Origin: Candidatus Arthromitus sp. SFB-turkey
GTDB lineage: Bacteria; Bacillota; Clostridia; Clostridiales; Clostridiaceae
Length of the DNA: 32,811 nucleotides
Direction of reading: 5' to 3'
NCBI RefSeq assembly: GCF_001655775.1
Contig: NZ_LXFF01000021.1
Location: 1-32,811, forward strand
The notes beneath the pieces are model-generated. The model saw only the letters and a program-made list of their open reading frames with translations, was not told the origin of the DNA and did no database searches. The translations under genes were made by a program, and so were the position numbers. Shown here one piece after another: positions 645-28,230 of this stretch. How positions within the stretch are numbered: the first letter of the stretch is position 1; every line of letters starts with the position of its first letter.

Positions 645-3578
645 ATGAAATCTAAAAAATTAAGAAAATTGATTGCAAGTGTTGCTATGTTAGCGATGAC
701 TGCAGGAGTATTTGGAGGTGGGGCTTCAGCTTTAGCAGTTACCATACCAGAGTTTGAAAAGGGATGGGCAGTAAATTTGGATTCTAGGGTAACTACTATA
801 AGTGGACAAGGTGTTCAGTTAACAACTGGTGTTACTAAAACAGAAGAAACTATAATGACTGTTGATAAGATTGAAACAGAAGTTTTAACGACTGATACTA
901 TTGTTAATGTTAATATTAATGGTACAAATACAAGTAGAACATATAAAGCGACTGATAGTGAAGGTGGAGTAGCTAGAGTAGGAGTTAGACTTGGTGGGAA
1001 GTTAGAGAGTTATTTACGTTCATATGTTACTGATGCGGTTTCAGAATATAGAGATAATGTAAATACAGTTAATGCTAATAGACATAATAATGGAACAAGT
1101 ATAAAACCAGAGAAACAAGTAGCTCTTGGAGAACGTTTATATGCTGCACTTTGGGGTAAAAATTCTTCAGGAAATTGGTTGAATGAAAGTGTTAGATTTA
1201 TAGTAACGTATGAGTTGAGTGATGGAAGAACTAGAACAACTAGTGTTGGATTGTCAGATATTACTTTAGATATGCCTGTGACTGATCCTGCTTCAATAAG
1301 TTCAGCTTCTGATTTAAGATCACTTGTTGATGAAAATGGATTGGTGTATTTAACTCTTAGAGGGCTTCCAAGCGATGTTACTATAACTAATGTTGAACTT
1401 GATTCGAGAAGTGATTTGCATGCAGTTACAAATGCAGCTGGAAGTGAATATTCAGTTCAGAAAACTTTAAATTATACTGCTGGAAGAGTTTCTATACCTG
1501 CATCTACATGGGTGTTAACAGATTCTTTATATCCAAGTGTTATCGTTAATGGAAAGTCAGAGAAGCAATTTTTGGATGCTGGAACTAGTAATGTAATTGA
1601 GAAAGATGAGCATTTCTTCGTTGATGTTGCGGGTACTACTGTTACTTTGGTTGATATACTAAAAGATACAGATAAGGTTGTAACAGGCGTTACGTTTACA
1701 GATAGAAGAGGAAATACTTATAATGGTGAAGTTGGAGATTTTGCTGAAGGTAAGTATAGAGAGACTCAAAACGGAACAGCGTATAATATAAATTACGGAA
1801 CTAGATATAGAGATATTAAGATACCAGGTCTTAATACTAGAACAAACTATGAGTTTGAGTATATGGATATAACTTATAAATCAGGTGATGGAGAAAGAAC
1901 TCAAAGAGTAAGATTTGATAATAAAGTTGCTACAGGTGAAGTTACAGGAAATAAATATTTGAGCGTAACTACAAGTGATTATGCAACTTCTCAAATTTAC
2001 GCTTATAGATCTCTTATTAATGGTGCAAGTTCATTGTATCAAGTAAATGTTGGAAGAAATAGTTTAGAGTATTTAGTAAAAGTTGATGACACTACTAACC
2101 TTGATAGATTAGAAGTTAGAGGGTTAAGAGGTGGAGAAACTTATACAGTTGAAAATGTAAAATCAGAAGACGGTAAAAAAGATAAATCAAATTGGTTTGC
2201 AGTTAAAATAACTGGATTAGAGGAAAATAGAGATTATAGTTTCTTATCTCTTGAAACAGTTTATAACGAGAATGGAAGAGAAAGATATGGAACACCAATA
2301 TCTTTAGGAAGATCATCTGATAATAGATACGATAATGTTCTATTCCCAGGAGATAATATAACATCATCTAATAACAGATACAATATGTTTGCTACTACTA
2401 ATAATGGAAATGTATCTGAGCTTTGGATTGATTCTCAGCTAAAACATGAGTCTGTTCCAGGAGGAGTTAAATTCTATGGAAGAGTTAAAGATGCTGATGA
2501 TATACTAGATAAAGTTAATGTTTATATAAATAATGGTGGAAGTTACGAAAGAATAGATGATTCTAATGTTAAGCTTGAAAAAACATACAGAATTGTTAAA
2601 GGAATTGATATTGATTCTAATGGTACATTAGATAGTACTAATAAAACTATAACTTATCCATATGTAAGTTCAGGCAATAATACTATATCAATTTCTGAAA
2701 ATAGTGTAGAGTCTGCTTCTGAAATGGTTGAAATAACTATAACAGGTATTTCATCAGATAGATCAAGAGACTTTAGATTTGATTTTACAACAAAACAAGA
2801 TGGAAATAGAGTTTCTTCTATTAGAACTGGTGATATTGGTGCATTTGGTTCTATACCTGCTGATAATACTAAAACTCAACAAACTGTAACTAGATATGCT
2901 AGTGGTAGAGCTGGAACTACTAAAGTTCAAGTTAACACATCAAATGTACAAGTTTCTGGTGTAACAACTACAACTGCTAATGTTACTGCTGGTATAACTA
3001 ATCCAGATAAAGAGGCTATAAATGTAGAGGTAGCTGGAGCTACTGGAGTTACTGCTAAGTACAATACTGAGAAAAATATAATTGAATTATCTGGACTTAG
3101 AGCTGGAACTGAATATAAAGATTTAAAATTAACTCTTAAGTATGGAGATAAGTCTACTACAATAACTGTACCAGCATTTACAACTACAACTACAACTCAA
3201 GTTGAAGGCGGAGTTGCAGGATATGTTGCTAGAGTTTATAGAACTTTCTTTAACAGAGAGGCAGATCAAGCAGGATTATTATACTGGACAGAAAGATTGG
3301 CTGGTGGAGAAGAAACTTTATCAGGATTCTTGAGACAACTTTCATTTACACCTGAGTTAATAGAGAAGAATTTAACTAATACGCAATTTGTTGAAAGAAT
3401 GTATGCTATAGTTGATAGAACTGGAGAGGCTGAAGGTGTAGCTTTCTGGGTTTCTGAAATAGAGAAAGGAATAAAAGAAGGAAATACTCAAAGTCAAGCT
3501 AGAGCAGCTGTAGTTGAAAGAATGTTAGATACTGATGAAGTTAAAGGTATTGCAACAAAGTTAGGAATTAAATTCTAA
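645..3578 (+). CDS. Large exported surface protein with C-terminal DUF4214-type module
   Basis: A 977-residue exported protein. The start is the ATG at 645, behind AGGAGG at 633-638; a TTG at 624 is in frame but would place the ribosome binding site inside the coding region. Residues 1 to about 32 form a Sec signal peptide (Lys-rich start, hydrophobic core, ASA-L-A region). The body is Thr/Asn/Ser-rich and beta-like, with no catalytic motif I recognise. An Ig-like domain at about 785-850 precedes the C-terminal module (about 860-977), which has two helical units of the DUF4214 pattern (NREADQAGLLYW, then RTGEAEGVAFW). There is no LPXTG motif and no C-terminal membrane segment, so the module itself may hold the protein at the surface; that is inference. 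Related modules end the proteins at 11891, 21514 and 24952. The rich Thr/Ser/Asn content makes it a plausible glycosylation target. Confidence 0.85.
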   Translation: MKSKKLRKLIASVAMLAMTAGVFGGGASALAVTIPEFEKGWAVNLDSRVTTISGQGVQLTTGVTKTEETIMTVDKIETEVLTTDTIVNVNINGTNTSRTYKATDSEGGVARVGVRLGGKLESYLRSYVTDAVSEYRDNVNTVNANRHNNGTSIKPEKQVALGERLYAALWGKNSSGNWLNESVRFIVTYELSDGRTRTTSVGLSDITLDMPVTDPASISSASDLRSLVDENGLVYLTLRGLPSDVTITNVELDSRSDLHAVTNAAGSEYSVQKTLNYTAGRVSIPASTWVLTDSLYPSVIVNGKSEKQFLDAGTSNVIEKDEHFFVDVAGTTVTLVDILKDTDKVVTGVTFTDRRGNTYNGEVGDFAEGKYRETQNGTAYNINYGTRYRDIKIPGLNTRTNYEFEYMDITYKSGDGERTQRVRFDNKVATGEVTGNKYLSVTTSDYATSQIYAYRSLINGASSLYQVNVGRNSLEYLVKVDDTTNLDRLEVRGLRGGETYTVENVKSEDGKKDKSNWFAVKITGLEENRDYSFLSLETVYNENGRERYGTPISLGRSSDNRYDNVLFPGDNITSSNNRYNMFATTNNGNVSELWIDSQLKHESVPGGVKFYGRVKDADDILDKVNVYINNGGSYERIDDSNVKLEKTYRIVKGIDIDSNGTLDSTNKTITYPYVSSGNNTISISENSVESASEMVEITITGISSDRSRDFRFDFTTKQDGNRVSSIRTGDIGAFGSIPADNTKTQQTVTRYASGRAGTTKVQVNTSNVQVSGVTTTTANVTAGITNPDKEAINVEVAGATGVTAKYNTEKNIIELSGLRAGTEYKDLKLTLKYGDKSTTITVPAFTTTTTTQVEGGVAGYVARVYRTFFNREADQAGLLYWTERLAGGEETLSGFLRQLSFTPELIEKNLTNTQFVERMYAIVDRTGEAEGVAFWVSEIEKGIKEGNTQSQARAAVVERMLDTDEVKGIATKLGIKF

Positions 3579-3597
3579 TTATAATATAAAAAATAAA

Positions 3598-3631: not shown

Positions 3632-5038
3632 TTATTTATTTTGAAGAAAGCTATCAATTTGTTCTTTTAAAGGAAGTAAGATATTTTTAATAGCTTCAAT
3701 GTTTTTGGGTGATTGTATTTGATTAAAATAGTAAAAAGCTCTTGTGTAATCCCTAAAACTTAAATATATAAGTCCTAGTGTGTGAAGTACGTGAGAATAA
3801 GTTCCATCGATTGTGTTAACTCTATTAGCTATATCTCCAACAGATTTTACCATAGTATTTATTTGTAAAAATTTATCGCTCATTACAGAATCATTTTCAA
3901 GTATTAATTTAAAATAAAAAGCATCTAAAGAATTTGGAATTTCATATTCCATAAGTTCAATTACTTCTTTCAATAAATCGTATTTTTTGTGTGAAACAGC
4001 TATTTTTGCAAGTAATGTTAAAATATTATAGTAAAAATTTTCAATTGAATTTTGAGTATGTTTTAGTTTTAATCCAGATTTTAAAATTTTAATACATTCA
4101 TCTACGTCATGTCCTAAAATATTTTTTTCACGTCCTAAAAAATAATACCATCTAATTTTATTTGGTTCTAGTTTTATCATTTTTTCAAGTATTTCTGTGT
4201 TTCTTTCAGCTTTATTTTTTCCTTTAAATACATCAGGATGATATCCATCGTGAGTTAGTGTTAAATTAAGCATAATGTAGTTTATTTCTTTTTCATTTTT
4301 TGAAACAATTTCTTCATGTATTTTTCCATCGAATTTCATGTCATGTTGTTTATTGAAAATTCTTTTTGTTGTATTTATTTTTTGTCCAAGAGAGTCTATA
4401 GTAGGTGAGAATACAAGAGGATGTTCTTTATTTGCTTTAAAGTTTTTAAATAAGGATATTAAGTCTTTTATGAGGTAAAATTCACCTGTAGGCGTTTCAT
4501 CAGCATCGATTGATAATATCCAATCGTTTGAAGATTTATCTATTAAAATATTTCTTGAATATGCAAAATCTTTTCTCCATTTATCATGAAAAATTTTAAC
4601 TTCTGGAAACTTTTCTTCAATTATTTTAACTGTATTATCTGTTGAACCAGTATCTAAAATAAGTATTTCATCAGCAAAATTTGAAAGTGCATTCAAACAT
4701 CGCTCAATACAACGTTCTTCATTAAATACAATTAGGTTTACACTTAATTTTATAGGCTCTTCATCTGAAAACATATTTATGAGATTAACAAGATCTTCAT
4801 TAGTAAAATCATCTTGATAATTTGTATAATCATCATTTATAAAAAATTTCAATATATCAGGGCATGTACCATTTATAAAACCTAAAAGTTTTATACGTCT
4901 ATTTAATTTATCTTCAAATTCTTTTGTCATTTCAAAATTATCTTCTTTTAGTTTGTTAAGTATATATTTGTGAAAATTTAAATTAAATTTAAAATAATCA
5001 ATATCTATATTTTCTAGTATTGAATTTAGTGTCAACAT
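3632..5038 (-). CDS. SunS-like GT2 glycosyltransferase with extra N-terminal domain
   Basis: A 468-residue cytoplasmic glycosyltransferase starting at the ATG at 5038 behind AGGTGG (5045-5050). Residues about 97-280 are a GT-A fold: an SVNLIVFNEE start, an LDTGSTDNT nucleotide-binding stretch, the metal-binding DAD at 178-180, and the KWRKDFAYSRN and FDGKIHEE stretches. These, with NGYxP- and FLGRE-like segments, closely resemble from memory the sublancin S-glycosyltransferase SunS and its relatives, which transfer sugar from a nucleotide donor to a peptide. The C-terminal part (about 290-468) looks like helical TPR-type repeats. The first ~90 residues are an extension (FxxNxNF, then LNRRIKLL, then DDYT) also present in the protein at 14814 and the remnant at 14155. 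No bacteriocin precursor or ABC exporter is nearby, so the substrate is more likely a surface protein. The family call is fairly secure; the substrate is inference. Confidence 0.75.
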   Translation of the reverse strand: MLTLNSILENIDIDYFKFNLNFHKYILNKLKEDNFEMTKEFEDKLNRRIKLLGFINGTCPDILKFFINDDYTNYQDDFTNEDLVNLINMFSDEEPIKLSVNLIVFNEERCIERCLNALSNFADEILILDTGSTDNTVKIIEEKFPEVKIFHDKWRKDFAYSRNILIDKSSNDWILSIDADETPTGEFYLIKDLISLFKNFKANKEHPLVFSPTIDSLGQKINTTKRIFNKQHDMKFDGKIHEEIVSKNEKEINYIMLNLTLTHDGYHPDVFKGKNKAERNTEILEKMIKLEPNKIRWYYFLGREKNILGHDVDECIKILKSGLKLKHTQNSIENFYYNILTLLAKIAVSHKKYDLLKEVIELMEYEIPNSLDAFYFKLILENDSVMSDKFLQINTMVKSVGDIANRVNTIDGTYSHVLHTLGLIYLSFRDYTRAFYYFNQIQSPKNIEAIKNILLPLKEQIDSFLQNK

Positions 5039-5201
5039 TTTAAACCACCTTTCAGATATGATGTAAATTTTATAGACGTTACAAATTTTAACTTTAAAAA
5101 ATTGTTAAAATCATTAATATATTTATTGTTAATTCTATAAAATTATAGCATTAACACATAATGTTTACAATCAATTTAAGAAGGCGTCAAATGAGGTGTT
5201 T

Positions 5202-6095
5202 ATGAAAGGAATTATATTGGCAGGTGGGGTTGCAAGTAGAATGTTTCCTATAACTTTGTCTATAACAAAACAATTACTACCTGTTTATGACAAACCAATG
5301 ATTTATTATTCTATATCAACTTTTATGATTGCAGGAATAAGAGATATTTTAATAATTGTATCACCAAACCAAATTGAAAATTTTAAAAATCTTTTAGGAG
5401 ATGGTTCACAATTTGGTATAAACATAAATTATGAAATTCAACAAAATCCCAATGGATTACCAGAAGCATTTATTATTGGAGAAAATTTTATTAAAAATAA
5501 TAAAGTTGCTTTAATACTTGGAGATAATATTTTTTATGGAAATGAATTTTCATATATTTTAAAAAATTCTATTGAAAAACATGATGGTGCCACTATATTT
5601 TTATATCCATCAAATAATCCAGAAAATTTTGGAGTTGTTGAATTTTCTGATGACAGAAAAATCATTTCTATTGAAGAAAAGCCTGAAAATCCAAAATCTA
5701 ATTATATTGTAACAGGACTTTATTTGTATGATGAAAATGTATCATATTACTCTAAAAGTTTGAGAAAGAGTTCTAGAGGAGAATTAGAGATAACAGATTT
5801 AAATAATATTTATCTTAAAAATGAAAAATTAAATTATGAAATTTTAGGAAAAGGTTTTTCTTGGATTGATACAGGAACTTTTGATTCCTTGTATGAAGCG
5901 TGTGAATTTATAAAAATTTTAGAAAAACGTCAAGGCATTAAAATAAGTGTACCTGAAGAAATTGCTTATAGAAATAAATGGATTTCAGAAGAAGAATTAT
6001 ATAGACAAGCTTTTAAATATAAAAATAATTCTTATGGTAAATATTTAAATAAAATAATAGATGAAGGAAAAGCTTTTGGAGGAAAATATGTTTAA
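5202..6095 (+). CDS. rmlA: Glucose-1-phosphate thymidylyltransferase
   Basis: RmlA joins glucose-1-phosphate and dTTP to make dTDP-glucose, the first step to dTDP-L-rhamnose. The protein is 297 residues, normal for the family, and starts MKGIILAGG as expected. The ATG at 5202, behind AGGTG at 5194-5198, is preferred to the in-frame GTG at 5196. Supporting motifs are SITKQLLPVYDKPMIYY, ILGDNIFYG (Asp about 109), EEKPENPKSNY and GFSWIDTGTFDSL. Two spots are unusual: the nucleotide-binding loop reads GGVASRMFP rather than the usual GGSGTRLYP, and DTGT is followed by Phe rather than His. The gene overlaps rmlC by 8 bases, so the two are co-transcribed and probably translationally coupled. Confidence 0.92.
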   Translation: MKGIILAGGVASRMFPITLSITKQLLPVYDKPMIYYSISTFMIAGIRDILIIVSPNQIENFKNLLGDGSQFGININYEIQQNPNGLPEAFIIGENFIKNNKVALILGDNIFYGNEFSYILKNSIEKHDGATIFLYPSNNPENFGVVEFSDDRKIISIEEKPENPKSNYIVTGLYLYDENVSYYSKSLRKSSRGELEITDLNNIYLKNEKLNYEILGKGFSWIDTGTFDSLYEACEFIKILEKRQGIKISVPEEIAYRNKWISEEELYRQAFKYKNNSYGKYLNKIIDEGKAFGGKYV

Positions 6096-6636
6096 AGATT
6101 TGTGGATAAATGGAGTTAAAGTTTATGAACCTAAAATATTTGAAGATGAACGAGGTTTATTTTTTGAAAGTTATAACAAAAATTTATTTTTTAATAATGG
6201 AATAACATGTGAATTTGTACAAGATAATAATTCTAAATCTTTGAAAAAATATACTATACGTGGACTTCATTTTCAAATAGGAAAATATGCACAAGCAAAA
6301 CTTGTAAGATGCACAAAGGGAAGTATTTTAGATTTTGTAGTTGATTTAAGAAAAGATTCTAAAACATTTTTATCGTGGGAAAAAGTTGAGCTTAGTGAAA
6401 ATAATAAAAAAATGATTTTTGTACCTAGAGGATTTGCACATGGATTTATAACACTTGAAGATGATGTTGAAGTGTCTTATAAAGTTGATAACTTTTACAA
6501 TAAAGAAAATGAACGTACGCTCATATATAATGATAAAACAATTAATATTGATTGGGGAATTAATTTGACTAAAGAAAATGTTATTTTATCTGAAAAAGAT
6601 TTGCTTGGTAAAAGTATTGAGGAGTTAGATTTTTAA
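6088..6636 (+). CDS. rmlC: dTDP-4-dehydrorhamnose 3,5-epimerase
   Basis: RmlC epimerises dTDP-4-dehydro-6-deoxyglucose at C3 and C5, the third step of dTDP-L-rhamnose synthesis. The start is the ATG at 6088 behind GGAGG at 6078-6082, giving 182 residues, a typical length. An in-frame start upstream at 6061 lies inside rmlA and has no better binding site. Visible family features are FEDERGLFFESY, IRGLHFQ with the catalytic His at 61, Lys at about 71, VPRGFAHGF, VSYKVDNFY with the active-site Tyr region, and the terminal IDW. It is cytoplasmic and follows rmlA with an 8-base overlap; a terminator comes directly after, so rmlAC is a two-gene unit apart from rmlBD. Confidence 0.93.
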   Translation: MFKDLWINGVKVYEPKIFEDERGLFFESYNKNLFFNNGITCEFVQDNNSKSLKKYTIRGLHFQIGKYAQAKLVRCTKGSILDFVVDLRKDSKTFLSWEKVELSENNKKMIFVPRGFAHGFITLEDDVEVSYKVDNFYNKENERTLIYNDKTINIDWGINLTKENVILSEKDLLGKSIEELDF

Positions 6637-6643
6637 AAATTAA

Positions 6644-8441: not shown

Positions 8442-8445
8442 TTAT

Positions 8446-8764: not shown

Positions 8765-9757
8765 ATGAAAATTTGTGTAGCTGGTGGAGCTGGATTTATT
8801 GGGAGTAATTTTATTCATTACATGATTAACAAATATAGAGATATCCAAATTGTTTGTATAGATGCTCTTACTTATGCTGGTAATCTTGAAAATTTAGAAA
8901 TTGTTAGAGAAAATACTAATTTTAAATTTTATAGGGGAAATATTTTAGATAATATTTTTTTAGATAAGGTTTTTTCAAAAGAAGATTTTGATGTTGTAAT
9001 AAATTTTGCTGCTGAATCTCATGTTGATAGATCTATAAAAAATGGAAAAATATTTTTAGAAACCAACGTAATAGGAACGAAAAATTTGATGGACATGTCT
9101 TTGAAGTATAATTTAAAAAGATATCATCAAATTTCTACTGATGAGGTATATGGAGATTTAGAGATAAATGATGCTAAATCATTTTCTGAAGAAGATATTT
9201 TAAAGCCGTCCTCTCCTTATTCTGTTTCTAAGGCATCAGCTGATATGCTTGTTATGAGTTATTTTAGAACATTTAATTTACCTGTCACCATATCTAGGTG
9301 TTCAAATAATTATGGGCCTTATCAATATCCAGAAAAATTTATACCTGTTATTATAACTAAAGCTATAAAGAATGAAAAAATTCCTGTGTATGGAAAAGGA
9401 GAAAATATTCGTGATTGGATACATGTGTATGATCATTCAATTTCTATAGATAAAATTATAAGAGAAGGTAGAATTGGTGAAATATATAATGTAAGTTCTA
9501 GAAATGAAATTAAAAATTTGGATTTGGCAAAAAAAATATTAGATATTTTAGATAAAGATTATTCTTTAATAACATTTGTTGAAGATAGACTAGGACATGA
9601 TATTAAATATTCAGTTAATAACGAAAAAATAAGAAATGAGTTATCTTTTGAGTGTAGTGTGGAGTTTTCAAAAGGATTGGAAAATACAGTAAATTGGTAT
9701 TTGGATAATTTAAATTGGGTAGAAGCAGTTTTGAAAGATAAATATATAGAGGTTTAA
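8765..9757 (+). CDS. rmlB: dTDP-glucose 4,6-dehydratase
   Basis: RmlB makes dTDP-4-dehydro-6-deoxyglucose, the second step of dTDP-L-rhamnose synthesis. It is a 330-residue short-chain dehydrogenase-type enzyme. GGAGFIGSN at 7-15 binds NAD; ALTYAGNLENL, FAAESHVDRS and STDEVYGD (Thr-Asp-Glu at about 125-127) are the dehydratase signature; Tyr152 and Lys156 in SPYSVSK form the catalytic YxxxK; SRCSNNYGPYQYPEKFIP and RDWIHVYDH follow as expected. The ATG at 8765 has AGGAGGA at 8754-8760. It heads the rmlB-rmlD-10611 operon. Confidence 0.95.
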   Translation: MKICVAGGAGFIGSNFIHYMINKYRDIQIVCIDALTYAGNLENLEIVRENTNFKFYRGNILDNIFLDKVFSKEDFDVVINFAAESHVDRSIKNGKIFLETNVIGTKNLMDMSLKYNLKRYHQISTDEVYGDLEINDAKSFSEEDILKPSSPYSVSKASADMLVMSYFRTFNLPVTISRCSNNYGPYQYPEKFIPVIITKAIKNEKIPVYGKGENIRDWIHVYDHSISIDKIIREGRIGEIYNVSSRNEIKNLDLAKKILDILDKDYSLITFVEDRLGHDIKYSVNNEKIRNELSFECSVEFSKGLENTVNWYLDNLNWVEAVLKDKYIEV

Positions 9758-14154: not shown

Positions 14155-14708
14155 GTGAATTTGTTAAAGAAAATTGATTCAAGATTTTTAATGGCTAATT
14201 TTAATTTTTTAAGTGAAATTAAAGTTAAATTATTAAATGAAGATTTATTATGTAAATTAAATAGGAGATTGGAAGTTTTAAAATGTATAGAAAGTGTTTC
14301 TAAACCTTTAGAAGTTTATTTTTATGGAAGTAATTACAAATATGTATTAGATAAACTTTCATTGAAAGAGGTTGAATTTTTAGCTAAAAAAATTTTATTT
14401 TATGAAAAGAAAGAGATTGATATAAAAACTTTTTCAGGTTTTGATGAAATGTTTTCAAAAATTTCAAAAAAATCTTATGATAAGATTAAAAATTGTGCAG
14501 AGGGAGAAAGTTTTTTAGTTAGTATAAATTCAAATTAAATTTTTATGAAAGATTAACACCAGGTGGATATATTTTTATACATGATTATAATCATAAGGCT
14601 TTTGGAGGAATAAGAGAGGCTGTTAGAAAATTTGAAAATATAATTGGAAAAAGAATTAACAAAGTTCCAATTTGTGATCTTGCTGGAAGTTTAATTATAA
14701 CAAAATAA
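14155..14708 (+). pseudogene. Remnant of an N-domain/TylF methyltransferase gene with internal deletion
   Basis: The first 127 codons (14155-14538, GTG start, AGGAG at 14142-14146) encode the same N-terminal domain as the gene at 14814: FLMANFNFLSEI, LNRRLEVLK, EVYFYGSNY. They end in a stop where the intact copy continues. Immediately after, in another frame, 14540-14708 encode YERLTPGGYIFIHDYNHK and on to SLIITK and a stop, matching the extreme C-terminus of the same neighbour. The ~1.3 kb between is missing. So this is a diverged sister copy that lost its middle and the methyltransferase cofactor site. The short N-terminal protein could still be made, because start, binding site and downstream terminator are intact. 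Confidence 0.85.
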
Positions 14709-18914: not shown

Positions 18915-18946
18915 AACCATTTGGAGTTTTCCAAGTGGTTTTTTTG
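18915..18946 (+). terminator. Terminator after GT2 copy 2 (shared CATTTGG family)
   Basis: AACCATTTGG (18915-18924) pairs with CCAAGTGGTT (18931-18940), including one G-T pair, with an AGTTTT loop and then a T run. It begins at the base after the stop codon. Confidence 0.8.
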
Positions 18947-18996: not shown

Positions 18997-19980
18997 ATGG
19001 AAGATTTAATAACTGTTATTATACCTATCTATAATCTTGAAAAATATTTACACGAAGGTATTTCAAGTGTAATTAATCAAACATATAAAAATCTTGAAAT
19101 AATTTTAGTTGATGATGGTTCTACGGATAATAGTTTGAGAATTGCTAGGTATTATGAAAGGCTTGATAAAAGAGTGAAAGTTATAACCCAGAAAAATATG
19201 GGAATATGTATGGCTATGAAAAATGCACTAGCTATTTCAAATGGCGAATACATTGCAAGATGTGATGGTGATGATATAAATGAACTTGATAGATATGAAA
19301 AACAACTTAAGTACTTAAAAGAAAATAATTGTGATATGATTGGATGTTATTTAAAAGGTTTTGGAAATGGTGATAAAGGCTATCAAAGATGTATGGAAGG
19401 GTTAAATATTCCCATAAGAAATTTTGATGATCAATTTATGAGGATATATCTGGGAAAAGCTATAAATGGGGGAGCTATTTTTGGAAAAAGTGAAGTGTTT
19501 AAAAAATTAATGCCATTTCATAAAGACTATGGAATTGTTGAAGATAGGTTAATATATTTATTATTTCATACAAAGGGGTATAAAATAGGGATAATAGAAG
19601 AAGTTTTATATAATTATAGAGTTCATAGCACCAATACTTCTTTAAACCCTAAGAGTAGAAAAAATATGCTTAGAAGGCATTTTGAACTTATGTTTAATTA
19701 TTTATTTTATGATGTTTTGTTTCATTATGAAAATATAATTTTTATAGAGATAAGTGATAGGTTAGAATTAATAAAAAGTGTTATTAATGAGTCTTTTAAT
19801 AATCTAAATTGTAAATTTGTAGATGAAAATCAATTTATGGATTTTATGAATGAAGAACTTTTTAAATATAGTTATAGAGATTCAGTTGTATTTTCAGGAA
19901 GTTTATTTTTAGAAAGTGTTTATTATTCTTCTAAACGTCTTGGGTATAAATATCTTGAAAATTTATTTTTGCTTGTGTAA
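18997..19980 (+). CDS. GT2 glycosyltransferase, tandem copy 3
   Basis: A 327-residue glycosyltransferase, ATG 18997 behind AGGTGA. Motifs are VIIPIYNLEKYL, VDDGSTDNSL, CDGDD and VEDRLIYLLF. Residues about 30-110 are nearly identical to copy 2, then the sequences diverge, most strongly after residue 115 and in the C-terminal ~80 residues (FHYENIIFIEISDRLELI). The end is a few residues shorter than copy 2, and its stop codon overlaps the stem of the terminator. Sugar donor and acceptor are unknown. Confidence 0.83.
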   Translation: MEDLITVIIPIYNLEKYLHEGISSVINQTYKNLEIILVDDGSTDNSLRIARYYERLDKRVKVITQKNMGICMAMKNALAISNGEYIARCDGDDINELDRYEKQLKYLKENNCDMIGCYLKGFGNGDKGYQRCMEGLNIPIRNFDDQFMRIYLGKAINGGAIFGKSEVFKKLMPFHKDYGIVEDRLIYLLFHTKGYKIGIIEEVLYNYRVHSTNTSLNPKSRKNMLRRHFELMFNYLFYDVLFHYENIIFIEISDRLELIKSVINESFNNLNCKFVDENQFMDFMNEELFKYSYRDSVVFSGSLFLESVYYSSKRLGYKYLENLFLLV

Positions 19981-20018
19981 ACCATTTGGAATTTTCCAAA
20001 TGGTTTTATTTTTTTTGA
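19979..20018 (+). terminator. Terminator after GT2 copy 3 (shared CATTTGG family)
   Basis: AAACCATTTGG (19979-19989) pairs with CCAAATGGTTT (19996-20006), loop AATTTT, followed by a long T-rich tail. It includes the last two bases of the stop codon. Confidence 0.8.
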
Positions 20019-20080: not shown

Positions 20081-21073
20081 ATGGAAGACTTAATAAGCGT
20101 TATTGTTCCTATTTATAACAGAGATAGATATTTACATGAAACAATTTTAAGTGTACTTAATCAAACGTATACTAACCTTGAAATAATTTTAATTGATGAT
20201 GGTTCAAGTGATGATGTTTTGAGAATTATGAAGCATTATGAGAAGCTTGATAAAAGAGTTAAGGTAATCACTCAAAAAAATATGGGAATTTGTTTAACTA
20301 TGAAAAATGCTTTAGCTGTTTCAAGTGGGAAATATATTGCGAGATGTGATTCTGATGATGTAAATGAACTTGATAGATATGAAAAGCAACTTAAGTTTTT
20401 AAAAGAGAATAATTTTGATATGGTTGGTTGTTATATAAAATGTTTTGGGACAGGTAGAGAAGGACAAAAGAGGTATTTAGAGCAGTGTGTAAATAAACCT
20501 ATAAGAACATATGAGGAACAAAAGAATAGAATTTTACTAGGTCAACCTATAACAGGAAGTACAATGTTTTGTAAAAGTGAGGTGTTAAAAGAGATATTAC
20601 CTTTTAAAAAAGATTGTTCTATTATAGAAGATTTTTATTTAAGTGTAATGCTTCATAAAGCGGGAAAAAGAATTTCCATACTCGAAGAAGAGAAACTAAA
20701 TTATCGTGTTCATAATGAAAATTTATCGCTAAGTGGTGATAAAAGATTACTTGAGAAACATACAGAAGTTGCGTTTACACATTTATTTAAAGATATTATT
20801 AATGAGAGCAGACGGGTAATAATTTTTAGGAAGAGTGATGAGAAAGAGAGCATTTTAAGAATACTTTTGAAGTTTTTTAGTGATAAGATTAATAAATTTA
20901 AAATAATAACAGAAAGTGAAGTTAAAGAATTTTTTATGAATAATATGAACGAGATTACAGATGGGGAAGGTAATGTTATATTTTATGGGATGAGTTTTAG
21001 AAATTGTGTTAAACCTTTCATAGAATGTGGAAAGTATCGACCTTATAAAAATATTTTTTTGTCTGGTAGCTAA
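20081..21073 (+). CDS. GT2 glycosyltransferase, tandem copy 4
   Basis: A 330-residue glycosyltransferase, ATG 20081 behind GGGAG. Motifs are VIVPIYNRDRYL, IDDGSSDDVL, CDSDD and IEDFYLSVML. It is the most diverged copy, with a different C-terminal domain sequence (VIIFRKSDEKESILRILL, then YRPYKNIFLSGS) that still aligns in layout with copy 2. Unlike copies 1-3 it is not followed by the shared terminator. Its position at the end of the array fits an older duplicate. Specific activity cannot be told from sequence. Confidence 0.82.
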   Translation: MEDLISVIVPIYNRDRYLHETILSVLNQTYTNLEIILIDDGSSDDVLRIMKHYEKLDKRVKVITQKNMGICLTMKNALAVSSGKYIARCDSDDVNELDRYEKQLKFLKENNFDMVGCYIKCFGTGREGQKRYLEQCVNKPIRTYEEQKNRILLGQPITGSTMFCKSEVLKEILPFKKDCSIIEDFYLSVMLHKAGKRISILEEEKLNYRVHNENLSLSGDKRLLEKHTEVAFTHLFKDIINESRRVIIFRKSDEKESILRILLKFFSDKINKFKIITESEVKEFFMNNMNEITDGEGNVIFYGMSFRNCVKPFIECGKYRPYKNIFLSGS

Positions 21074-21513: not shown

Positions 21514-24500
21514 ATGAATAAAAAAAGAGTGGCTTTGGCTTTAGCAGCTGCACTTGGTGTTAATACTTTAATGGTAACTGTTGGACAAGTTGGGGAGCAA
21601 ATTACGGTAGCACATGCTCAATCAAGCAGACTTATGACTGATCAAGAGGAAGCAAGACGTAAAGCTATAGGTATAAAACAATTAGATACTACAGCTACAA
21701 ATTTAGCAAATGGTAATGTTGAAGTAACATTTAACAATGTTAAAACAAGTGATATTAAATCAGTTACTTCTACAGCATTTGAACACAAAAAATTCACAGA
21801 GAGAGAAAGTATTGATGGACAAAATTCAGCAGTAACTCCTACATGGGCTAACGGTAAGTTGACTTTCAGTGGAATTAAAGAAGCTGGTATATATACAGGA
21901 ACTATTACTATAGAGTATAATGGCGGAGCTAAAGAATCATATACATTATCTTTAACAAAGAAAGCTACTGATACAATAGAATTAGGAAAAGTTGATGTTA
22001 CAGCAGGGGCTATAAAAATTACTGGTGTTAAATTTAATGGACAAGCATTAAAAGATGGCGAAACTTTGTATTTAGTAGAAAAAGGAGGAAGTGTAACTTC
22101 AACTACTCCAAAAGCTACTTATACTGCAACAGATGGAGCGGTATTTAATAGCGGAATCAATTTTAAAGAAGGACAAGTTTACGAAGTTGTTTATAAATAT
22201 GCAAATGATTTACATGAAGTGTCTACTCAGCTTATGTTAGTTAAGGATGCTACACCTGTATTTGCAGGATTTGGTTCAAATGATAATGCAAATTTTGAAG
22301 CAAATTTAAAATCACAAGTTGTTGCTGACTATGGAGTAGCTGATGCGGATGTTACACTTGACACTACTGCAGCTAATGTTGTTGTTAGTGGAATATCTTC
22401 ACCAATAGTTGAGTTTAAGCAAACTTATAGTGGCGCTAATCCAGCAGGAGCTATATTAAGTGCTAGTTTTAATACCGATAGTACATTAAAAGTTAATTTA
22501 GGTACAGCTGGACTTGATGCTGCAGCAGCTAACTATGTGCCACATCTTGAGCTTGGATATGGAGCAACTCCAGCTAATGCTACAGGTTTAGTTGGAATTT
22601 ATACAATTAAAGTAGGAAGCGATGCTCCAGTTGTATATTTTGATGCGTCTGATAAAGTTTCAGGAGTTTCACAAGATACGACAGGTAATAATGGTAATCT
22701 TAAGGTAGATTCTATATCAACAAGTGTGGCAACTTTGGATGTTTCAGCCTTAGATTATACTAAGAGTTTTGAGCATGGATATTCATCAGTTCCAGTTACT
22801 TTTGGTATTCAGTCTATTAATGGTTCAGAAGTTACATTTGGTGGTAATACGTTTGATGGCTGGTCAGGTGCTATAACTCATGGAACTAATCCTGTTAAGC
22901 CTACTCTTACTGAAAAGCCAGCTGTGGGAGTATCAAGTGTGACTGCTTCAATAATAGTTTCTGCAGATAAATTGGATGCGTCTACAATTAGTGCAGAATT
23001 TGTTAAAACTAGTGATTCAACTGGAGAATTAATATTAAAGAATGGACAATCATTATTCCCAGCAAACTTTAATCCAAACGATGTTGTTTCTAAGTTAAGT
23101 GTATCAGGAGCGTCAAAAGTTGGTTTAGTTGCTGATGGAAGCAAAACTGATTTAAGATTTGCAGTTGAGTACAATGGAACTCTTCCTACAACTATAGATT
23201 GGACATTTACTGTCGATAATAAAGACTTAGTTTCAACTTCTTCTACATTTGGTGGAAAGTTAGAAACAAGTAAAGGAGCAGTTGAAACTGTTAACTTTAA
23301 AGATACAGTTACAACATCAAATTCTAATACAAACAATATTCAAAACCAATTTGCGCTTGTAGCTGCATTTGGAAATTCAGTTCCAACAGGTGCTACTGTA
23401 GGATTTGAAAGTCAAAGTAATTTAAGAGTTACTTTTGCTGATTTAGGAACTGGAAATAAAACTATAAATGCTACAGTTGGTGCTGGAAGTAAATATCAAG
23501 GAACTTATGCAGCTGGTATTTGGGTTACTCAACAACCATTTACTATATTAGCAAAAGACGCTAAGTCAGTTTCAAATACTTCAGCTAGTTTAGTTGTAGA
23601 TGCTAACTTCTTTACAACTGATGATATTTCTAAAGTAACTGGTGGTGTTGTTCAGTATTCAGAAAAAACTACTAGCGGATCTACTACTACTTGGTCAGAT
23701 TGGAAAGATTCTTCAACTAAAGTTGAGAAATCTGAAGTTAAAGAAGATGCAATCACTAAGACTGTAACTGGACTTACAGGAGGAAAAACTTACAAGTTTA
23801 GGGTTGTTTATGATTATAACAACGGAACTACAACAGAAAAAGTTTACTCAAATGAAACTGCGGAAGTAACGTTACCAACTTCTTCAAGCAGTAGTACAAT
23901 TACAGGAAGTGGAGGAACAACGACTGGAACTTCAACAGGTTCAACTACTATTAATGTAACTACAAGCAACTCAACATTAACTGGTACTTCAGCTTCTGTA
24001 ACTCTTCCTTCAGGCTTTAGATATGATTCAGGCAAAAATCCAGTTGCTGTAACATTCAAATATAAAGATAAAGATGGAAAAATTGTTACTGAAACTAAAG
24101 AACAATACAGTAATGTAACTGCTAGATTTAACGGAAATAACGTTGAACTTAACGGTTTAGTTCCAGGAAAGGATTATAACGAAATAACTGTTGATTACAC
24201 TGATAACAACGGAAGAACTAGAAGCATAATTCTTAGAAATATCCAAACTTCTACTACAGTAGAATCTGATAAATATTTAGCTAATGTTTACGAAGTAGTA
24301 TTTGGAAGACCAGCAGATGAAGCAGGTTACCACTTCCACTTAGACAACTTGAAAAACAAGAAAGTTTCTTTAAGAGATTTCTTATTGAATATGTTGAATG
24401 AAAAAGAATTTGTTGAAAAGTACAAATCTACAGAAGAGAAAATAGAAGCTTTATACAATGCTATAGTTAACAGAACTTCCGACGAAGCAGGTAAGAAATT

Positions 24501-24633
24501 CTGGGTTGATGAGTATAAGAAAGTATTAGCTGTTTATGGTTCAGAAACTACTGCTCTTAAAGCTATAGCTGATAGAATGGTAAATGAAAATGAATTAAAA
24601 GAACTTGCTGACAAAATGGGAGTTCAATGGTAA
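21514..24633 (+). CDS. Large exported surface protein with DUF4214-type C-terminus, tandem copy 1
   Basis: A 1039-residue secreted protein; ATG 21514, GGAGG at 21499-21503. Residues 1 to about 35 are a Sec signal peptide ending AHA before QSS. The body is Ala/Thr/Ser/Val-rich beta-sandwich-like sequence with no Cys and no enzyme motif I recognise. A fibronectin-type-III-like domain lies at about 690-790 (GLTGGKTYKFRVVYDYNNG), followed by a Ser/Thr/Gly-rich linker (about 790-815), an Ig-like domain (NNVELNGLVPGKDYNEI), and a DUF4214 pair at 921-1039 (FGRPADEAGYHFHLDNL and NRTSDEAGKKFWVDEY, ending KMGVQW). The signal peptide and everything after about residue 660 are shared with the next gene; the middle differs. 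There is no LPXTG motif. The Ser/Thr linker is a plausible O-glycosylation site; that is inference. Confidence 0.87.
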   Translation: MNKKRVALALAAALGVNTLMVTVGQVGEQITVAHAQSSRLMTDQEEARRKAIGIKQLDTTATNLANGNVEVTFNNVKTSDIKSVTSTAFEHKKFTERESIDGQNSAVTPTWANGKLTFSGIKEAGIYTGTITIEYNGGAKESYTLSLTKKATDTIELGKVDVTAGAIKITGVKFNGQALKDGETLYLVEKGGSVTSTTPKATYTATDGAVFNSGINFKEGQVYEVVYKYANDLHEVSTQLMLVKDATPVFAGFGSNDNANFEANLKSQVVADYGVADADVTLDTTAANVVVSGISSPIVEFKQTYSGANPAGAILSASFNTDSTLKVNLGTAGLDAAAANYVPHLELGYGATPANATGLVGIYTIKVGSDAPVVYFDASDKVSGVSQDTTGNNGNLKVDSISTSVATLDVSALDYTKSFEHGYSSVPVTFGIQSINGSEVTFGGNTFDGWSGAITHGTNPVKPTLTEKPAVGVSSVTASIIVSADKLDASTISAEFVKTSDSTGELILKNGQSLFPANFNPNDVVSKLSVSGASKVGLVADGSKTDLRFAVEYNGTLPTTIDWTFTVDNKDLVSTSSTFGGKLETSKGAVETVNFKDTVTTSNSNTNNIQNQFALVAAFGNSVPTGATVGFESQSNLRVTFADLGTGNKTINATVGAGSKYQGTYAAGIWVTQQPFTILAKDAKSVSNTSASLVVDANFFTTDDISKVTGGVVQYSEKTTSGSTTTWSDWKDSSTKVEKSEVKEDAITKTVTGLTGGKTYKFRVVYDYNNGTTTEKVYSNETAEVTLPTSSSSSTITGSGGTTTGTSTGSTTINVTTSNSTLTGTSASVTLPSGFRYDSGKNPVAVTFKYKDKDGKIVTETKEQYSNVTARFNGNNVELNGLVPGKDYNEITVDYTDNNGRTRSIILRNIQTSTTVESDKYLANVYEVVFGRPADEAGYHFHLDNLKNKKVSLRDFLLNMLNEKEFVEKYKSTEEKIEALYNAIVNRTSDEAGKKFWVDEYKKVLAVYGSETTALKAIADRMVNENELKELADKMGVQW
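24274..24630 (+). repeat. Near-identical DUF4214-coding repeat, copy 1
   Basis: These 357 bases encode the last 119 residues of the 21514 protein and match 27871-28227 in length and nearly all codons, far better than the middle parts of the two genes match. The third-position identity points to recent duplication or gene conversion. Confidence 0.8.
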
Positions 24634-24951: not shown

Positions 24952-27900
24952 ATGAATAAAAAAAGAGTAGCGTTGACCTTAGCAGCTGCACTTGGTGTTA
25001 ATACTTTTGTTGTTTCAGTTGGAAATTTTGGCGGAAAGGTACAAGTAGTTCACGCACAACAACAAGGAAGATTGACAAATACTGAAGATATAAACAAACT
25101 TAATAGTATAAAAATTGAAACTTTACAAACAACAGTTGAAAGCGTAACAGATAGTGAAGTTATTTTGACTTTTAAAGATGTAAATAAAGATAATGTTAAA
25201 AATGTTAGTGGAAGTCTTGCGTATACAAAATTTACTGAAAGACCAACTACAGATACTAATGGAAATGTAAATGTTTTTTGGGATGCAAATACAGGAAAAT
25301 CTACAGTTAAAGGAATGAATGCTCCAGGAATATATAGTGGAGATGTAACTATTGAATATAAAGACGGAACAAATAAAGTTTACACACTTACTTTGAGAAA
25401 AACTTATGAAGAAAATGAATTAACAGCGAGTATTAATGTTGGAATCGGAACAATTGAAGTTACAGATGTTAAAGTTAATGGACAAGCTAAAACAATAGAT
25501 GCAAGTAATACTTTGGAGTTGTATTTAGGTGATAAATTAATAGATACAATAAAAACTTCAAATGATAATAAATTTACTGTTCCAGATATGAAAGCTGGAC
25601 AAGTTTATAAACTTGTTTATAAAGAAAACGGAAATGAAGTTACAAGTACTCAAATAATTTTAACAGAGCAAGAACAAGCAACAGTTAAAGCATACGCAAC
25701 TAATACTACAACTGCAGCAAATGAAATTAAAACTGTAATTGAAAAAGATTATGATACTTCAACTGTAGACGTAACTAAAACTTCTAGTGCTAATGGTAGT
25801 ACATATTTAAATGATACAAACTTTAAGTTTAAAGTTGGAACTACTTCTGTTTTAGACTATACTCAAACTGAAACTAAAACAGCGGATTCTAATGGAGCTC
25901 ACAGACAAGGGGGAGCAAAAATTGATGTGTCATCTACTTCAACAACAAATGCTAACTTGACTATTAGTGTTGGAGGAGAAAATGTTGATTTATTGTATTT
26001 AGATAAAGCAACTGGAGGTAATTTCTTGCCAGCTTATATGATGACATGGGGACCTTTTAGAGGATATTTAACTACAGCAGATAATGGAAAACAAATGAAT
26101 GTTGCTTATGGAGTAGGAAGTGTTGGTTTAGGAAGTGAAGTTCAATCTTTATACGATGCTTCAAAAGAAGTTAGTTCAGTAGGTGTTGCTATTATAGTTA
26201 TAAATCGCACAAAATATAAAAGTTTATACGTTATGGGAGGAGTTAAGCCTATTTTAGAAATGAATGAAATTCCTCCTACAGCTAGTAAGCCTGATACTAA
26301 TTCAGGTGCTACAGATGCTAATATGGTTCCTGTAAGTACGGTAACATTTAATTATGATACAAGTAAGTTAGAACATGGATATAATTCAGTATCTCTTAAT
26401 TTTACAGCAGAAGAAACTCCTATTTTAGGTAGTACTGTAGCACAATTAGCAGATATGGTTGATAATGAATTATTTGCTGATCAAAGTGGTGCTTTGGTAG
26501 ATTTACCGCATATAGCACCTGAAAAAGCTGGAACTAATGATTCTGATACTTCTAAATTTAATACAAGACATACAACAACACCAGTTAAAGCATCAGTAGT
26601 TATAGCTAAAGATGCTATAGATGGAAGTATAGTAAATGCTAAGTTTGAGAGAGTAAGTGCGTCAGAAGGAAATCTAATTTTAACAAATGGAGAAGAATTA
26701 TTAAAAGGAACTGATGAAAATACATTAGCTAGAAAATTAAGTGTTTCTGGAAGCACAGGTATAAGCTTCGTAGAGAAAGATAATAATGGAAATTTAGTAT
26801 TTAGAGTTCAATTTAATGGACAAGTTCCTTCAACTATAAATTGGAAATTAAATGATTTAGGAAGCACAATTAATATTACAAGAGTAGATGCAGTTAATTT
26901 TGACGGAGAAGTAAAAGTTTCAAATGCGAATACTGATAAAATAGAAGGTCAATTTGATATAGTGGCTAAGTTTAATTCAACAGTTACAACAGGAGGAACA
27001 TTGGGCATTGACGGAAGTAATAGTTTAAGAGTTACTTTTAGTAGTTTAACAAATGGTTCTCATAAGATTTCTACAACTACAAATACAGGAAAATATCAAG
27101 GAACTTATTCAGCGGGTATTGTAGTTAGTAGGACACCATTTACTATAGAAGTAAGAGATGTTAAGGCAGTTTCAAGTACTTCAGCAAGTATAGTTATAGA
27201 TGCTAACTTCTTTAGTACAGATGATATTCCTAAAGTATCTGGTGGAGTTATTCAGTATTCAGAAAAAACTATTAATGGAAATACTACTACTTGGTCAGAT
27301 TGGAAAGACTCTTCAGCAAAAGTTGATAAATCTGAAGTTAAAGAAGAGGCAATTACTAAAACTGTAGATGGACTTACAACAGGAAAAACTTATAAATTTA
27401 GGGCAGTTTATGATTATAATAATGGAACTTCAACAGAGAAGATTTATTCAAATGAAACTACAGAAGTAACTTTACCAACTTCTTCAGTAAATAGTACAAT
27501 TACAGGGAGTGGAAGTACAACTGGAACTTCAGGAGGTTCAACAACTATTTATATAACTACAAGTAATTCAACATCATATAGGGATTCTGTATCTGTAAAT
27601 CTTCCTTCAGGATTTAGTTATGATTTAGGAAAGAATCCAGTTGCTGTTAAAATAACTTATAGAGATCTTGATGGAAAGATTGTTACTGAAAGTAAGGAAC
27701 AATTTAGTAATGTAATTGCTAAATTTGAAAATGGTAAGGTTGTTCTTGAAGGATTAGTTCCTGGAAAAGATTATTCAGAAATAAGTATTGATTATATAGA
27801 TAATAACGGAAAGACTAAAACTTTAGTTCTTAAAAATATTAAAGTTGATTTTACAACAGAACTTGAAAAATATTTAGCTAATGTTTATCAAGTAGTGTTT

Positions 27901-28230
27901 GGAAGACCAGCTGACGAAGCAGGTTACCACTTCCACTTAGACAACTTGAAAAATAAGAAGGTTTCTTTGAGAGATTTCTTATTAAATATGTTGACTGAGA
28001 AAGAATTTGTTGAAAAATACAAATCTACAGAAGAGAAAATAGAAGCTCTATATAATGCTATAGTTAATAGAACTTCTGACGAAGCAGGTAAGAAATTCTG
28101 GGTTGATGAGTATAAGAAAGTATTAGCTGTTTATGGTTCAGAGTCTACTGCTCTTAGAGCTATTGCTGATAGAATGGTAAATGAAAATGAATTAAAAGAA
28201 CTTGCTGACAAAATGGGAGTTGAGTGGTAA
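24952..28230 (+). CDS. Large exported surface protein with DUF4214-type C-terminus, tandem copy 2
   Basis: A 1092-residue secreted protein; ATG 24952, GGAGG at 24937-24941, the same 10-base spacing as its sister. The signal peptide (1 to about 36, ending VVHA) is almost the same as copy 1. Residues to about 160 are related, the middle (about 220-560) has little similarity, and the last ~400 residues are again close: an FN3-like domain (GLTTGKTYKFRAVYDYNNG), a Ser/Thr/Gly linker, an Ig-like domain (NGKVVLEGLVPGKDYSEI) and DUF4214 units at 974-1092. Conserved ends with a variable centre are the usual pattern of surface antigens and S-layer-like proteins. No catalytic motif or cell-wall sorting signal is seen. 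Confidence 0.87.
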   Translation: MNKKRVALTLAAALGVNTFVVSVGNFGGKVQVVHAQQQGRLTNTEDINKLNSIKIETLQTTVESVTDSEVILTFKDVNKDNVKNVSGSLAYTKFTERPTTDTNGNVNVFWDANTGKSTVKGMNAPGIYSGDVTIEYKDGTNKVYTLTLRKTYEENELTASINVGIGTIEVTDVKVNGQAKTIDASNTLELYLGDKLIDTIKTSNDNKFTVPDMKAGQVYKLVYKENGNEVTSTQIILTEQEQATVKAYATNTTTAANEIKTVIEKDYDTSTVDVTKTSSANGSTYLNDTNFKFKVGTTSVLDYTQTETKTADSNGAHRQGGAKIDVSSTSTTNANLTISVGGENVDLLYLDKATGGNFLPAYMMTWGPFRGYLTTADNGKQMNVAYGVGSVGLGSEVQSLYDASKEVSSVGVAIIVINRTKYKSLYVMGGVKPILEMNEIPPTASKPDTNSGATDANMVPVSTVTFNYDTSKLEHGYNSVSLNFTAEETPILGSTVAQLADMVDNELFADQSGALVDLPHIAPEKAGTNDSDTSKFNTRHTTTPVKASVVIAKDAIDGSIVNAKFERVSASEGNLILTNGEELLKGTDENTLARKLSVSGSTGISFVEKDNNGNLVFRVQFNGQVPSTINWKLNDLGSTINITRVDAVNFDGEVKVSNANTDKIEGQFDIVAKFNSTVTTGGTLGIDGSNSLRVTFSSLTNGSHKISTTTNTGKYQGTYSAGIVVSRTPFTIEVRDVKAVSSTSASIVIDANFFSTDDIPKVSGGVIQYSEKTINGNTTTWSDWKDSSAKVDKSEVKEEAITKTVDGLTTGKTYKFRAVYDYNNGTSTEKIYSNETTEVTLPTSSVNSTITGSGSTTGTSGGSTTIYITTSNSTSYRDSVSVNLPSGFSYDLGKNPVAVKITYRDLDGKIVTESKEQFSNVIAKFENGKVVLEGLVPGKDYSEISIDYIDNNGKTKTLVLKNIKVDFTTELEKYLANVYQVVFGRPADEAGYHFHLDNLKNKKVSLRDFLLNMLTEKEFVEKYKSTEEKIEALYNAIVNRTSDEAGKKFWVDEYKKVLAVYGSESTALRAIADRMVNENELKELADKMGVEW
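27871..28227 (+). repeat. Near-identical DUF4214-coding repeat, copy 2
   Basis: This is the partner of 24274-24630: same length (119 codons) and near-identical bases, encoding the C-terminal module of the 24952 protein. Confidence 0.8.

Follow-up and report, generated by a model that had tools for sequence, protein, structure and literature searches.

A candidate protein-glycosylation locus with a SunS-like glycosyltransferase and DUF4214-tailed surface proteins in turkey segmented filamentous bacteria

Turkey segmented filamentous bacteria (SFB) are bird-gut bacteria that attach to intestinal cells, and SFB influence gut immunity through their contact with the epithelium. We analysed one contig of Candidatus Arthromitus sp. 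SFB-turkey (NZ_LXFF01000021.1 in assembly GCF_001655775.1; positions 1 to 32,811, hereafter the window), one of the 41 contigs that make up the 1,631,326 bases of this genome. The window carries a gene for a SunS-like glycosyltransferase among genes for surface proteins with C-terminal DUF4214 domains, for the synthesis of deoxythymidine diphosphate (dTDP)-L-rhamnose, for family 2 glycosyltransferases (GT2) and for a methyltransferase. A domain shared by three of the encoded proteins is here termed the N-domain. The genes are arranged as follows:

645..3578, plus strand: exported 977-residue DUF4214-tailed surface protein; gene converges on that of the SunS-like enzyme, and both other SFB genomes have an orthologue at the same position
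3632..5038, minus strand: SunS/GmaR-type GT2 peptide/protein glycosyltransferase; N-domain at about residues 1-95, DAD at residues 178-180
5196..6095, plus strand: rmlA, NCBIfam equivalog, 431 bits, above cut-off
6061..6636, plus strand: rmlC, NCBIfam equivalog, 208 bits, above cut-off
8765..9757, plus strand: rmlB, NCBIfam equivalog, 438 bits, above cut-off
9764..10606, plus strand: rmlD, NCBIfam equivalog, 256 bits, above cut-off
10611..11747, plus strand: 378-residue protein with N-terminal membrane anchor, beta-domain and weak DUF4214
11891..14053, plus strand: exported 720-residue DUF4214-tailed protein
14155..14538, plus strand: stand-alone N-domain protein, 127 residues
14814..16682, plus strand: N-domain, long middle region and TylF-type O-methyltransferase
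16814..17752, plus strand: GT2 no. 1, C-terminus lost to TAA; homology goes on to 17794
17916..18914, plus strand: GT2 no. 2
18997..19980, plus strand: GT2 no. 3, the copy closest to the single locus GT2 of each other SFB
20081..21073, plus strand: GT2 no. 4
21514..24633, plus strand: exported 1039-residue DUF4214-tailed protein, no cysteine
24952..28230, plus strand: exported 1092-residue DUF4214-tailed tandem paralogue, no cysteine

In the first of these open reading frames (ORFs), the ATG at 645 is the sensible start; the mechanical ORF opens with the TTG at 624. Between rmlAC and rmlBD lies an adenine deaminase gene of the opposite strand, and the gaps from rmlB to rmlD and from rmlD to the membrane DUF4214 gene measure 6 and 4 bases. 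An initial annotation made from the sequence had listed four large secreted DUF4214-tailed proteins and a membrane-anchored one, a complete rhamnose pathway, four GT2 enzymes and a sugar-type O-methyltransferase, and this inventory was borne out, with the additions that the first GT2 is truncated and that the methyltransferase sits behind a long N-terminal part. It had also seen no flippase, oligosaccharyltransferase, sortase or S-layer-homology (SLH) domain, and none was found among the 21 window ORFs scanned with Pfam; the initiating transferase and the exporter that complete a lipid-linked S-layer glycosylation set were likewise not found among them.

The SunS-like enzyme scored 202.7 bits with TIGR04195, under the SunS equivalog cut-off of 350, so that the SunS-like assignment of the initial annotation holds for a family relative and not for a SunS equivalog. 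The protein carries PF00535 (1.4e-18), and it aligned with the solved SunS-family chains 7msk (1.2e-47) and 7msn (1.4e-44) and with GmaR (22ao, 1.4e-24). Its DxD-type site (DAD) is the same in the SFB genome MAG.106 and lines up with the motif of a solved SunS-family chain. The turkey genome has no second SunS-like match at E<=0.001. Judged by its sequence relationships, the enzyme is probably a cytoplasmic protein glycosyltransferase. An AlphaFold model built from two sequences had a mean predicted local distance difference test score (pLDDT) of 40.3 and was not used. The sublancin S-glycosyltransferase SunS is the best named family, and the alignment extends over most of the solved SunS chains; unlike in SunS, however, most of the N-domain precedes the aligned part, and by eye, with no search aimed at it, a glycocin gene was not recognised at the SFB locus.

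Class-wide searches covered 391 clostridial genomes, two SFB included, and a SunS-like relative at E<=1e-15 was present in 71 of them, including the two SFB. The local alignments listed for non-SFB relatives, of which the top ones are 27-37% identical, begin at query residue 82 or later, in one case at 65, and thus do not reach most of the N-domain. In the turkey genome, the N-domain occurs in three proteins, all encoded in the window: the SunS-like enzyme, the TylF protein and the 127-residue protein. Strong matches among the 391 genomes were confined to the two SFB, and two marginal partial matches outside the genus (E about 8e-4) were treated as doubtful and not as members. No solved structure matched the N-domain by sequence at E<=10. 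Since the locus encodes it both on its own and as part of two different enzymes, the glycosyltransferase and the methyltransferase, the N-domain is probably a docking module that joins enzymes to one another or to a client.

Among the 69 external genomes with a SunS-like match, we examined 28 loci, namely those returned by the search. Flagellin genes lay within about 1.5 kb at 11 of these, and when the other 17 were re-read on wider stretches, some of which ended at contig ends, flagellin was found at four more, giving 15 of 28. DUF6385 proteins were encoded near nine of the 28 relatives, in one case together with a BclA-like collagen. The best external match (L134 4524-16682) shares a gene row with rmlDCBA, each of which exceeds its NCBIfam cut-off, and FlaG and FliD follow. 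This row is likely a rhamnose flagellin-glycosylation island, and a SunS-like relative and rmlABCD thus occur together in a likely protein-glycosylation setting. Overall, flagellar or DUF6385 genes were near 25 of the 28 external relatives, and a recognised client was absent in three. The SunS-like family is therefore commonly encoded near a surface protein that is plausible as its client. The tree places the DUF6385-linked enzymes in a single clade, together with two of the three loci that have no recognised client.

These neighbourhoods make flagellin a serious rival client. The SunS-like enzyme would then be the SFB flagellin glycosyltransferase, its adjacency to DUF4214 genes would be incidental, and the N-domain proteins would assist in flagellin glycosylation. 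Besides the 15 loci with flagellin and the one with FlaG, FliD and rmlABCD, this would agree with the flagellins of the three SFB genomes, each of which has 5 to 8 Flagellin_N matches, and with the function of GmaR, a structural match of the enzyme, which glycosylates flagellin (PMC9638930; papers are cited by PubMed Central number, each from extracts of its text). However, in the SFB genome termed "rat" below, the enzyme is encoded about 610 kb from the nearest flagellin of about 400 residues and about 306 kb from a weaker 284-residue Flagellin_N match, and by eye no SunS-like ORF stands out near the SFB flagellins read. The N-domain was not found in the flagellin-linked relatives and is confined to the SFB locus, and the turkey SFB may, according to the extract of PMC9482736, miss parts of the flagellum and has still kept the enzyme. 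We consider flagellin glycosylation rather unlikely to be the role of the enzyme.

The cytoplasmic enzymes described so far offer models for both options. GmaR transfers sugar directly to flagellin in the cytoplasm, as does SgtA of Clostridioides difficile to its client (PMC9638930, PMC7157674), and FlmG is a further cytoplasmic enzyme that acts on flagellin (PMC7591256). The initial annotation had argued that attachment would have to occur before export or by an unfamiliar route; in view of GmaR and SgtA, such a route is a familiar one. The window enzyme matches the glycosyltransferase domain of GmaR in sequence, and with GmaR-type enzymes it would share transfer in the cytoplasm and subsequent export of the client, whereas the SFB gene has no adjoining flagellin and no recognised antirepressor part, and the N-domain is not seen in the GmaR type. 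The sgtA gene lies immediately upstream of bclA3, and SgtA adds N-acetylglucosamine to Thr, and Ser, of BclA3 peptides (PMC7157674). The two systems have in common a glycosyltransferase gene beside a surface client and, as proposed here, sugar on Ser/Thr of a low-complexity region, and relatives of the window enzyme adjoin DUF6385 and BclA-like genes. They differ in that the candidate client here is a vegetative DUF4214-anchored wall protein and not a spore collagen, and in the extra N-domain; SgtA is likened to the window enzyme by description.

The locus was compared with those of two further SFB genomes, a genus member in one contig of 1,515,556 bases, which we take to be rat SFB-Yit ("rat"), and MAG.106 (JAGHEJ01). 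Gene names in these two were assigned by position and likeness, and MurT and GatD in the window by profile scans. Rat and MAG.106 share the order DUF4214 protein of 954-974 residues, SunS-like enzyme, adenine deaminase, rmlB, membrane DUF4214 protein, DUF4214 protein of about 720 residues, N-domain protein, GT2, large DUF4214 protein, NAGPA-type protein and GatD-like gene, with, by eye, two extra genes between the SunS-like and adenine deaminase genes. A core that comprises four DUF4214 proteins besides the SunS-like enzyme, rmlB, the N-domain protein and one or more GT2 keeps this order in all three SFB, and the locus thus appears to be more than a chance assembly. In each of the three genomes, the SunS-like gene adjoins a DUF4214 gene of about 960-980 residues. 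The SunS-like protein is also the best conserved, at 84% identity to turkey in rat and 86% in MAG.106, whereas the other locus proteins compared reach at most 81%: RmlB 75 and 81%, the 720-residue protein 68 and 73%, the protein of about 980 residues 60 and 62%, the membrane DUF4214 protein 45 and 61%, and the large DUF4214 protein 42 and 62% (rat and MAG.106, respectively); comparisons made with rat only gave 75% for adenine deaminase, 81% for MurT and 60% for the NAGPA-type protein. The membrane DUF4214 gene follows rmlB in rat and MAG.106 and rmlB-rmlD in turkey. By eye, the stand-alone 127-residue N-domain gene is absent from the locus ORFs of rat and MAG.106.

DUF4214 was recognised in the four large exported proteins (645-3578, 11891-14053, 21514-24633 and 24952-28230) with 46.3-49.7 bits against a Pfam cut-off of 23.2, and by eye their N-termini are signal-peptide-like. 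The membrane-anchored protein (10611-11747) reached only 18.9 bits, yet it aligns across the same beta-domain and DUF4214 tail. The 50 DUF4214 matches of the turkey genome fall, apart from one outside, into 27 ORFs in the stretches read, five of them at the locus. The domain is present in all three genomes of the genus and in none of 54 other relatives, and six of the 391 clostridial genomes match, five over the cut-off, namely the two SFB and three of one other genus. As a side observation, two genomes of that genus (f44/g95; L159, L160, L161, L163, L164) hold 110 and 131 loose DUF4214 candidates, of which 14 were scored in each.

The modelled tail (pLDDT 81.6) consists of the beta-domain and eight helices. 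In a fold search, the helical part resembled phycobilisome linker domains (best Z 9.6, 3.6 Å over 112 residues), and the non-linker rows, which start at Z 6.5, fall on the beta-domain, which matches generic immunoglobulin (Ig)-like folds only. Since helical bundles with Z below about 13 may, as the fold tool cautions, represent a common arrangement, the fold assignment leans also on the profile of the DUF4214 alignment, which matches ApcE at 1.2e-16; model and profile together support the prediction that the tail is a helical domain with the phycobilisome linker fold. A shared fold shows no function, and we deduce wall attachment from fusion partners and published work. DUF4214 is fused to Amidase_2, Beta-lactamase2 and Cohesin in SFB (ten proteins scanned); of five proteins scanned from the other genus, three join it to NlpC/P60, YkuD or choline-binding repeats. 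The domain is a C-terminal motif in p3340 and other SFB proteins (PMC7474095) and has been proposed as an SFB surface anchor (PMC12780176); in the same extracts, SFB are described as having no sortase (PMC7474095) and as largely devoid of SLH and other typical clostridial wall-binding domains (PMC12780176). The window tails represent this published domain, to which our analysis adds the likeness to the linker fold and the wall-enzyme fusions in another clostridial genus. DUF4214 is thus likely to be a wall-attachment module. The initial annotation had left open whether it is an anchor or a recognition tag, and only the first option fits well: a main role as a tag for glycan enzymes was rejected, given that 22 of the 27 ORFs lie elsewhere in the genome, that the domain is fused to wall enzymes, and that none of the three DUF4214 genomes of the other genus belongs to the 71 in which a SunS-like relative was present. 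Conversely, SunS-like enzymes occur in genomes without DUF4214 proteins (G004, G008, G010, G011 and G023), which, for the SunS-like family in general, is the outcome that the initial annotation had named as evidence against its reading; the matches in these five do not cover the N-domain, however, and their neighbours are other types of client.

A possible acceptor region was found in the two large tandem proteins. The 1039-residue protein contains a 40-residue stretch with 67.5% Ser/Thr directly before the C-terminal beta-domain, and the 1092-residue protein a 60% stretch at the corresponding place; ranked by their richest 40-residue stretch, they are second and third of 158 turkey ORFs (at least 150 residues, stretches read). 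The feature is kept in the counterparts of rat (62.5%) and MAG.106 (60%), whereas the richest stretches of the other three DUF4214 proteins of the window have 22.5-37.5%. As low-complexity Ser/Thr linkers occur unglycosylated too, this is a pointer and not proof. Like the two tandem proteins, the 977- and 378-residue neighbours are free of cysteine.

The rhamnose genes differ from this conserved core. RmlC was found in one of the three SFB genomes, turkey, and not in rat or MAG.106, and the best rmlA-type matches in these two are only 27-32% identical to window RmlA, for which reasons rhamnose was rejected as core sugar. rmlB is present at the locus in all three, in rat and MAG.106 without other rml genes beside it. 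The TylF protein of turkey has kept the S-adenosylmethionine (SAM) motif and the metal-site acidic residues, as seen in alignment to solved TylF-family chains, whereas in MAG.106 the domain is degenerate with loss of acidic and SAM-motif residues, and in rat it is missing from the N-domain protein (locus only); the N-terminal part is preserved in all three. In our reading of these sequences, rhamnose and a methyl cap would be a turkey-type elaboration and not core chemistry. A decayed RmlA-like fragment with stops, 56% identical to window RmlA, lies elsewhere in the genome (L154, own genome C32:239-601).

An extract on these genes ascribes the dTDP-rhamnose pathway and additional glycosyl transferases to turkey and one human SFB group, and suggests that they may alter cell-wall polysaccharide (PMC13153320). 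On this account, the rml and four GT2 genes would make a rhamnose-containing wall polysaccharide unrelated to the surface proteins, and the clustering would reflect a shared surface theme. The restriction of RmlC to one genome agrees with this, as RmlC does not accompany the conserved DUF4214 genes in every SFB. All three SFB genomes encode a Wzy_C-family protein elsewhere, and a polysaccharide-type contig of MAG.106 (C89; L077 1-8436) has, besides several glycosyltransferase-like ORFs and distant relatives of the window GT2, a gene for an initiating sugar transferase (Bac_transf); SFB can therefore hold lipid-linked glycan genes outside the locus. Within the window, however, neither an initiating transferase nor a flippase or polymerase was among the ORFs scanned, the best external SunS-like relative lies beside rmlABCD in a flagellar setting, and rmlB, rmlD and the membrane DUF4214 gene are tightly spaced. 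A purely polysaccharide role of these genes is somewhat unlikely. Part of the data is accounted for by each of three roles, namely glycosylation of neighbouring proteins, glycosylation of flagellin and synthesis of wall polysaccharide; the likelihoods that we attach to them overlap, because the purpose of the SunS-like enzyme may differ from that of the rml/GT2 genes.

The gene content of the locus also varies. There are four GT2 genes in turkey and one each at the locus in rat and MAG.106, and the turkey copies cluster together, apart from the other SFB copies, with moderate support (86/84). Near-alike terminator-like hairpins lie 3' of GT2 nos. 1, 2 and 3 (17816-17843, 18913-18942 and 19979-20006), with none listed after no. 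4, and the GT2 genes look as if they had been duplicated along with their own terminators. Intact large DUF4214 proteins number two in turkey and one each in rat and MAG.106; the second large gene of MAG.106 (L046 15426-17912) is split into ORFs of 558 and 162 residues, the first without an evident signal peptide. The whole might thus be a duplication hot spot where surface and sugar genes merely pile up and only parts are functional, to which the shortened GT2 no. 1, the decayed RmlA-like fragment, the degenerate or missing methyltransferases, the broken DUF4214 gene and a tyrosine-recombinase-family (Phage_integrase) ORF at the contig end (31902-32612, minus strand) would fit. Such an origin appears improbable for a locus whose core order is kept in three of three SFB and whose SunS-like protein is so well conserved.

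We regard cytoplasmic O-glycosylation of the neighbouring surface proteins as the best reading, with a probability of roughly 0.45. We take the locus to belong to the genes that shape the cell surface of turkey SFB, and the DUF4214-tailed proteins would be exported and held in the wall by their tails. By analogy with its family, the SunS/GmaR-type enzyme would put the first sugar from a nucleotide donor onto Ser/Thr of the client in the cytoplasm before export, and flippase, oligosaccharyltransferase and sortase would then not be needed. The likeliest clients would be the adjoining DUF4214 proteins, an assignment that we give slightly less than even odds, and first of all the Ser/Thr-rich linkers of the two proteins of about 1,050 residues. 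The N-domain would bring the enzymes together or dock them to the client, and GT2 enzymes would extend the glycan, with rhamnose and the methyl cap added as the turkey-type elaboration. The assembly line seen by the initial annotation would thus stand as a protein-glycosylation-type enzyme with candidate clients adjoining, as in 25 of 28 relatives, and would not stand with rhamnose and methyl groups at its core.

Several observations weigh against this reading. In the tree, the SFB enzymes form a long branch of their own that lies outside the DUF6385 clade and does not point to an ancestral client class. Among the clients of the family, flagellins stand out most clearly; flagellin genes are present in SFB, and turkey has no second SunS-like match. 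In the 977-residue neighbour of the SunS-like gene, Ser/Thr makes up no more than 37.5% of any 40-residue stretch, and the top Ser/Thr rank belongs to an unrelated 177-residue ORF (70%). It is less common for such large proteins to be glycosylated before they leave by Sec than for glycosylation to precede flagellar export. SFB surface-protein glycosylation was not found among the literature matches listed, in a search without most subscription journals. Finally, terminator-like hairpins follow GT2 nos. 1-3, the 720-residue, 127-residue and TylF genes and both large genes, so that a single operon spanning the whole locus is not supported. Terminator-like sites numbered 12 against 2.8 expected, and promoter-like sites showed no excess (112 against 123.7 in shuffles).

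If cytoplasmic O-glycosylation of the neighbours is correct, the SunS/GmaR/SgtA type of enzyme would also act on surface proteins of vegetative cells that carry signal peptides and are anchored in the wall, and host-specific SFB could vary surface sugars on a conserved protein scaffold, with rhamnose and methyl groups at the turkey and not at the rat locus. The S-layer glycosylation (slg) clusters of Bacillota have rmlABCD beside an S-layer gene. The window resembles them in that rmlABCD, glycosyltransferases and a methyltransferase adjoin large exported surface proteins, and differs from them in having no initiating transferase, ATP-binding cassette (ABC) exporter or oligosaccharyltransferase among the ORFs scanned. 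The rhamnose pathway of turkey SFB and DUF4214 as anchor are already in print, whereas an SFB SunS/GmaR-type enzyme, the N-domain, a conserved DUF4214-linking locus and the Ser/Thr linker were not found among the literature matches listed.

A few candidates for the subunits of SFB surface layers emerge from the analysis as well. A 2025 cryo-electron microscopy study describes the composition of the SFB hair-like layer as unknown, gives 28 nm for ordered and 34 nm for disordered hairs, and recalls a Bacillus in which two S-layer proteins are exchanged during development (extract of PMC12780176). The two tandem proteins have about 1,050 residues and no cysteine, at least one intact counterpart is present at the locus in each other SFB, and about nine or ten Ig-like domains, of which only the last was modelled, would by our estimate span some 30-40 nm. 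As a long shot, they might be subunits of the intracellular offspring (IO) S-layer and/or the hair-like layer, swapped in development, with DUF4214 as their anchor and with cytoplasmic O-glycosylation by the N-domain enzymes. Codon adaptation was tried as a proxy for abundance and rejected: on the table derived from four reference flagellins, three of these ranked only 26, 28 and 30 of 158 ORFs and the fourth outside the first 35, so that the measure carries no signal in this A+T-rich genome (by it, the 1092-residue protein ranked 27 and the 1039-residue protein 120).

Downstream of the tandem genes, a NAGPA-type phosphodiester glycosidase with a signal-peptide-like start is encoded on the minus strand (28263-29510). 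Its gene adjoins a large DUF4214 gene in all three SFB, in MAG.106 the broken second copy, and its substrate could have a bearing on the surface glycan. A further DUF4214 protein (L073 9653-12796; own genome C12:37652-40795) contains the peptide EMMDQPEFK in its C-terminus, a peptide reported from mass spectrometry of human gut fluid for an SFB DUF4214 protein (extract of PMC6034559).

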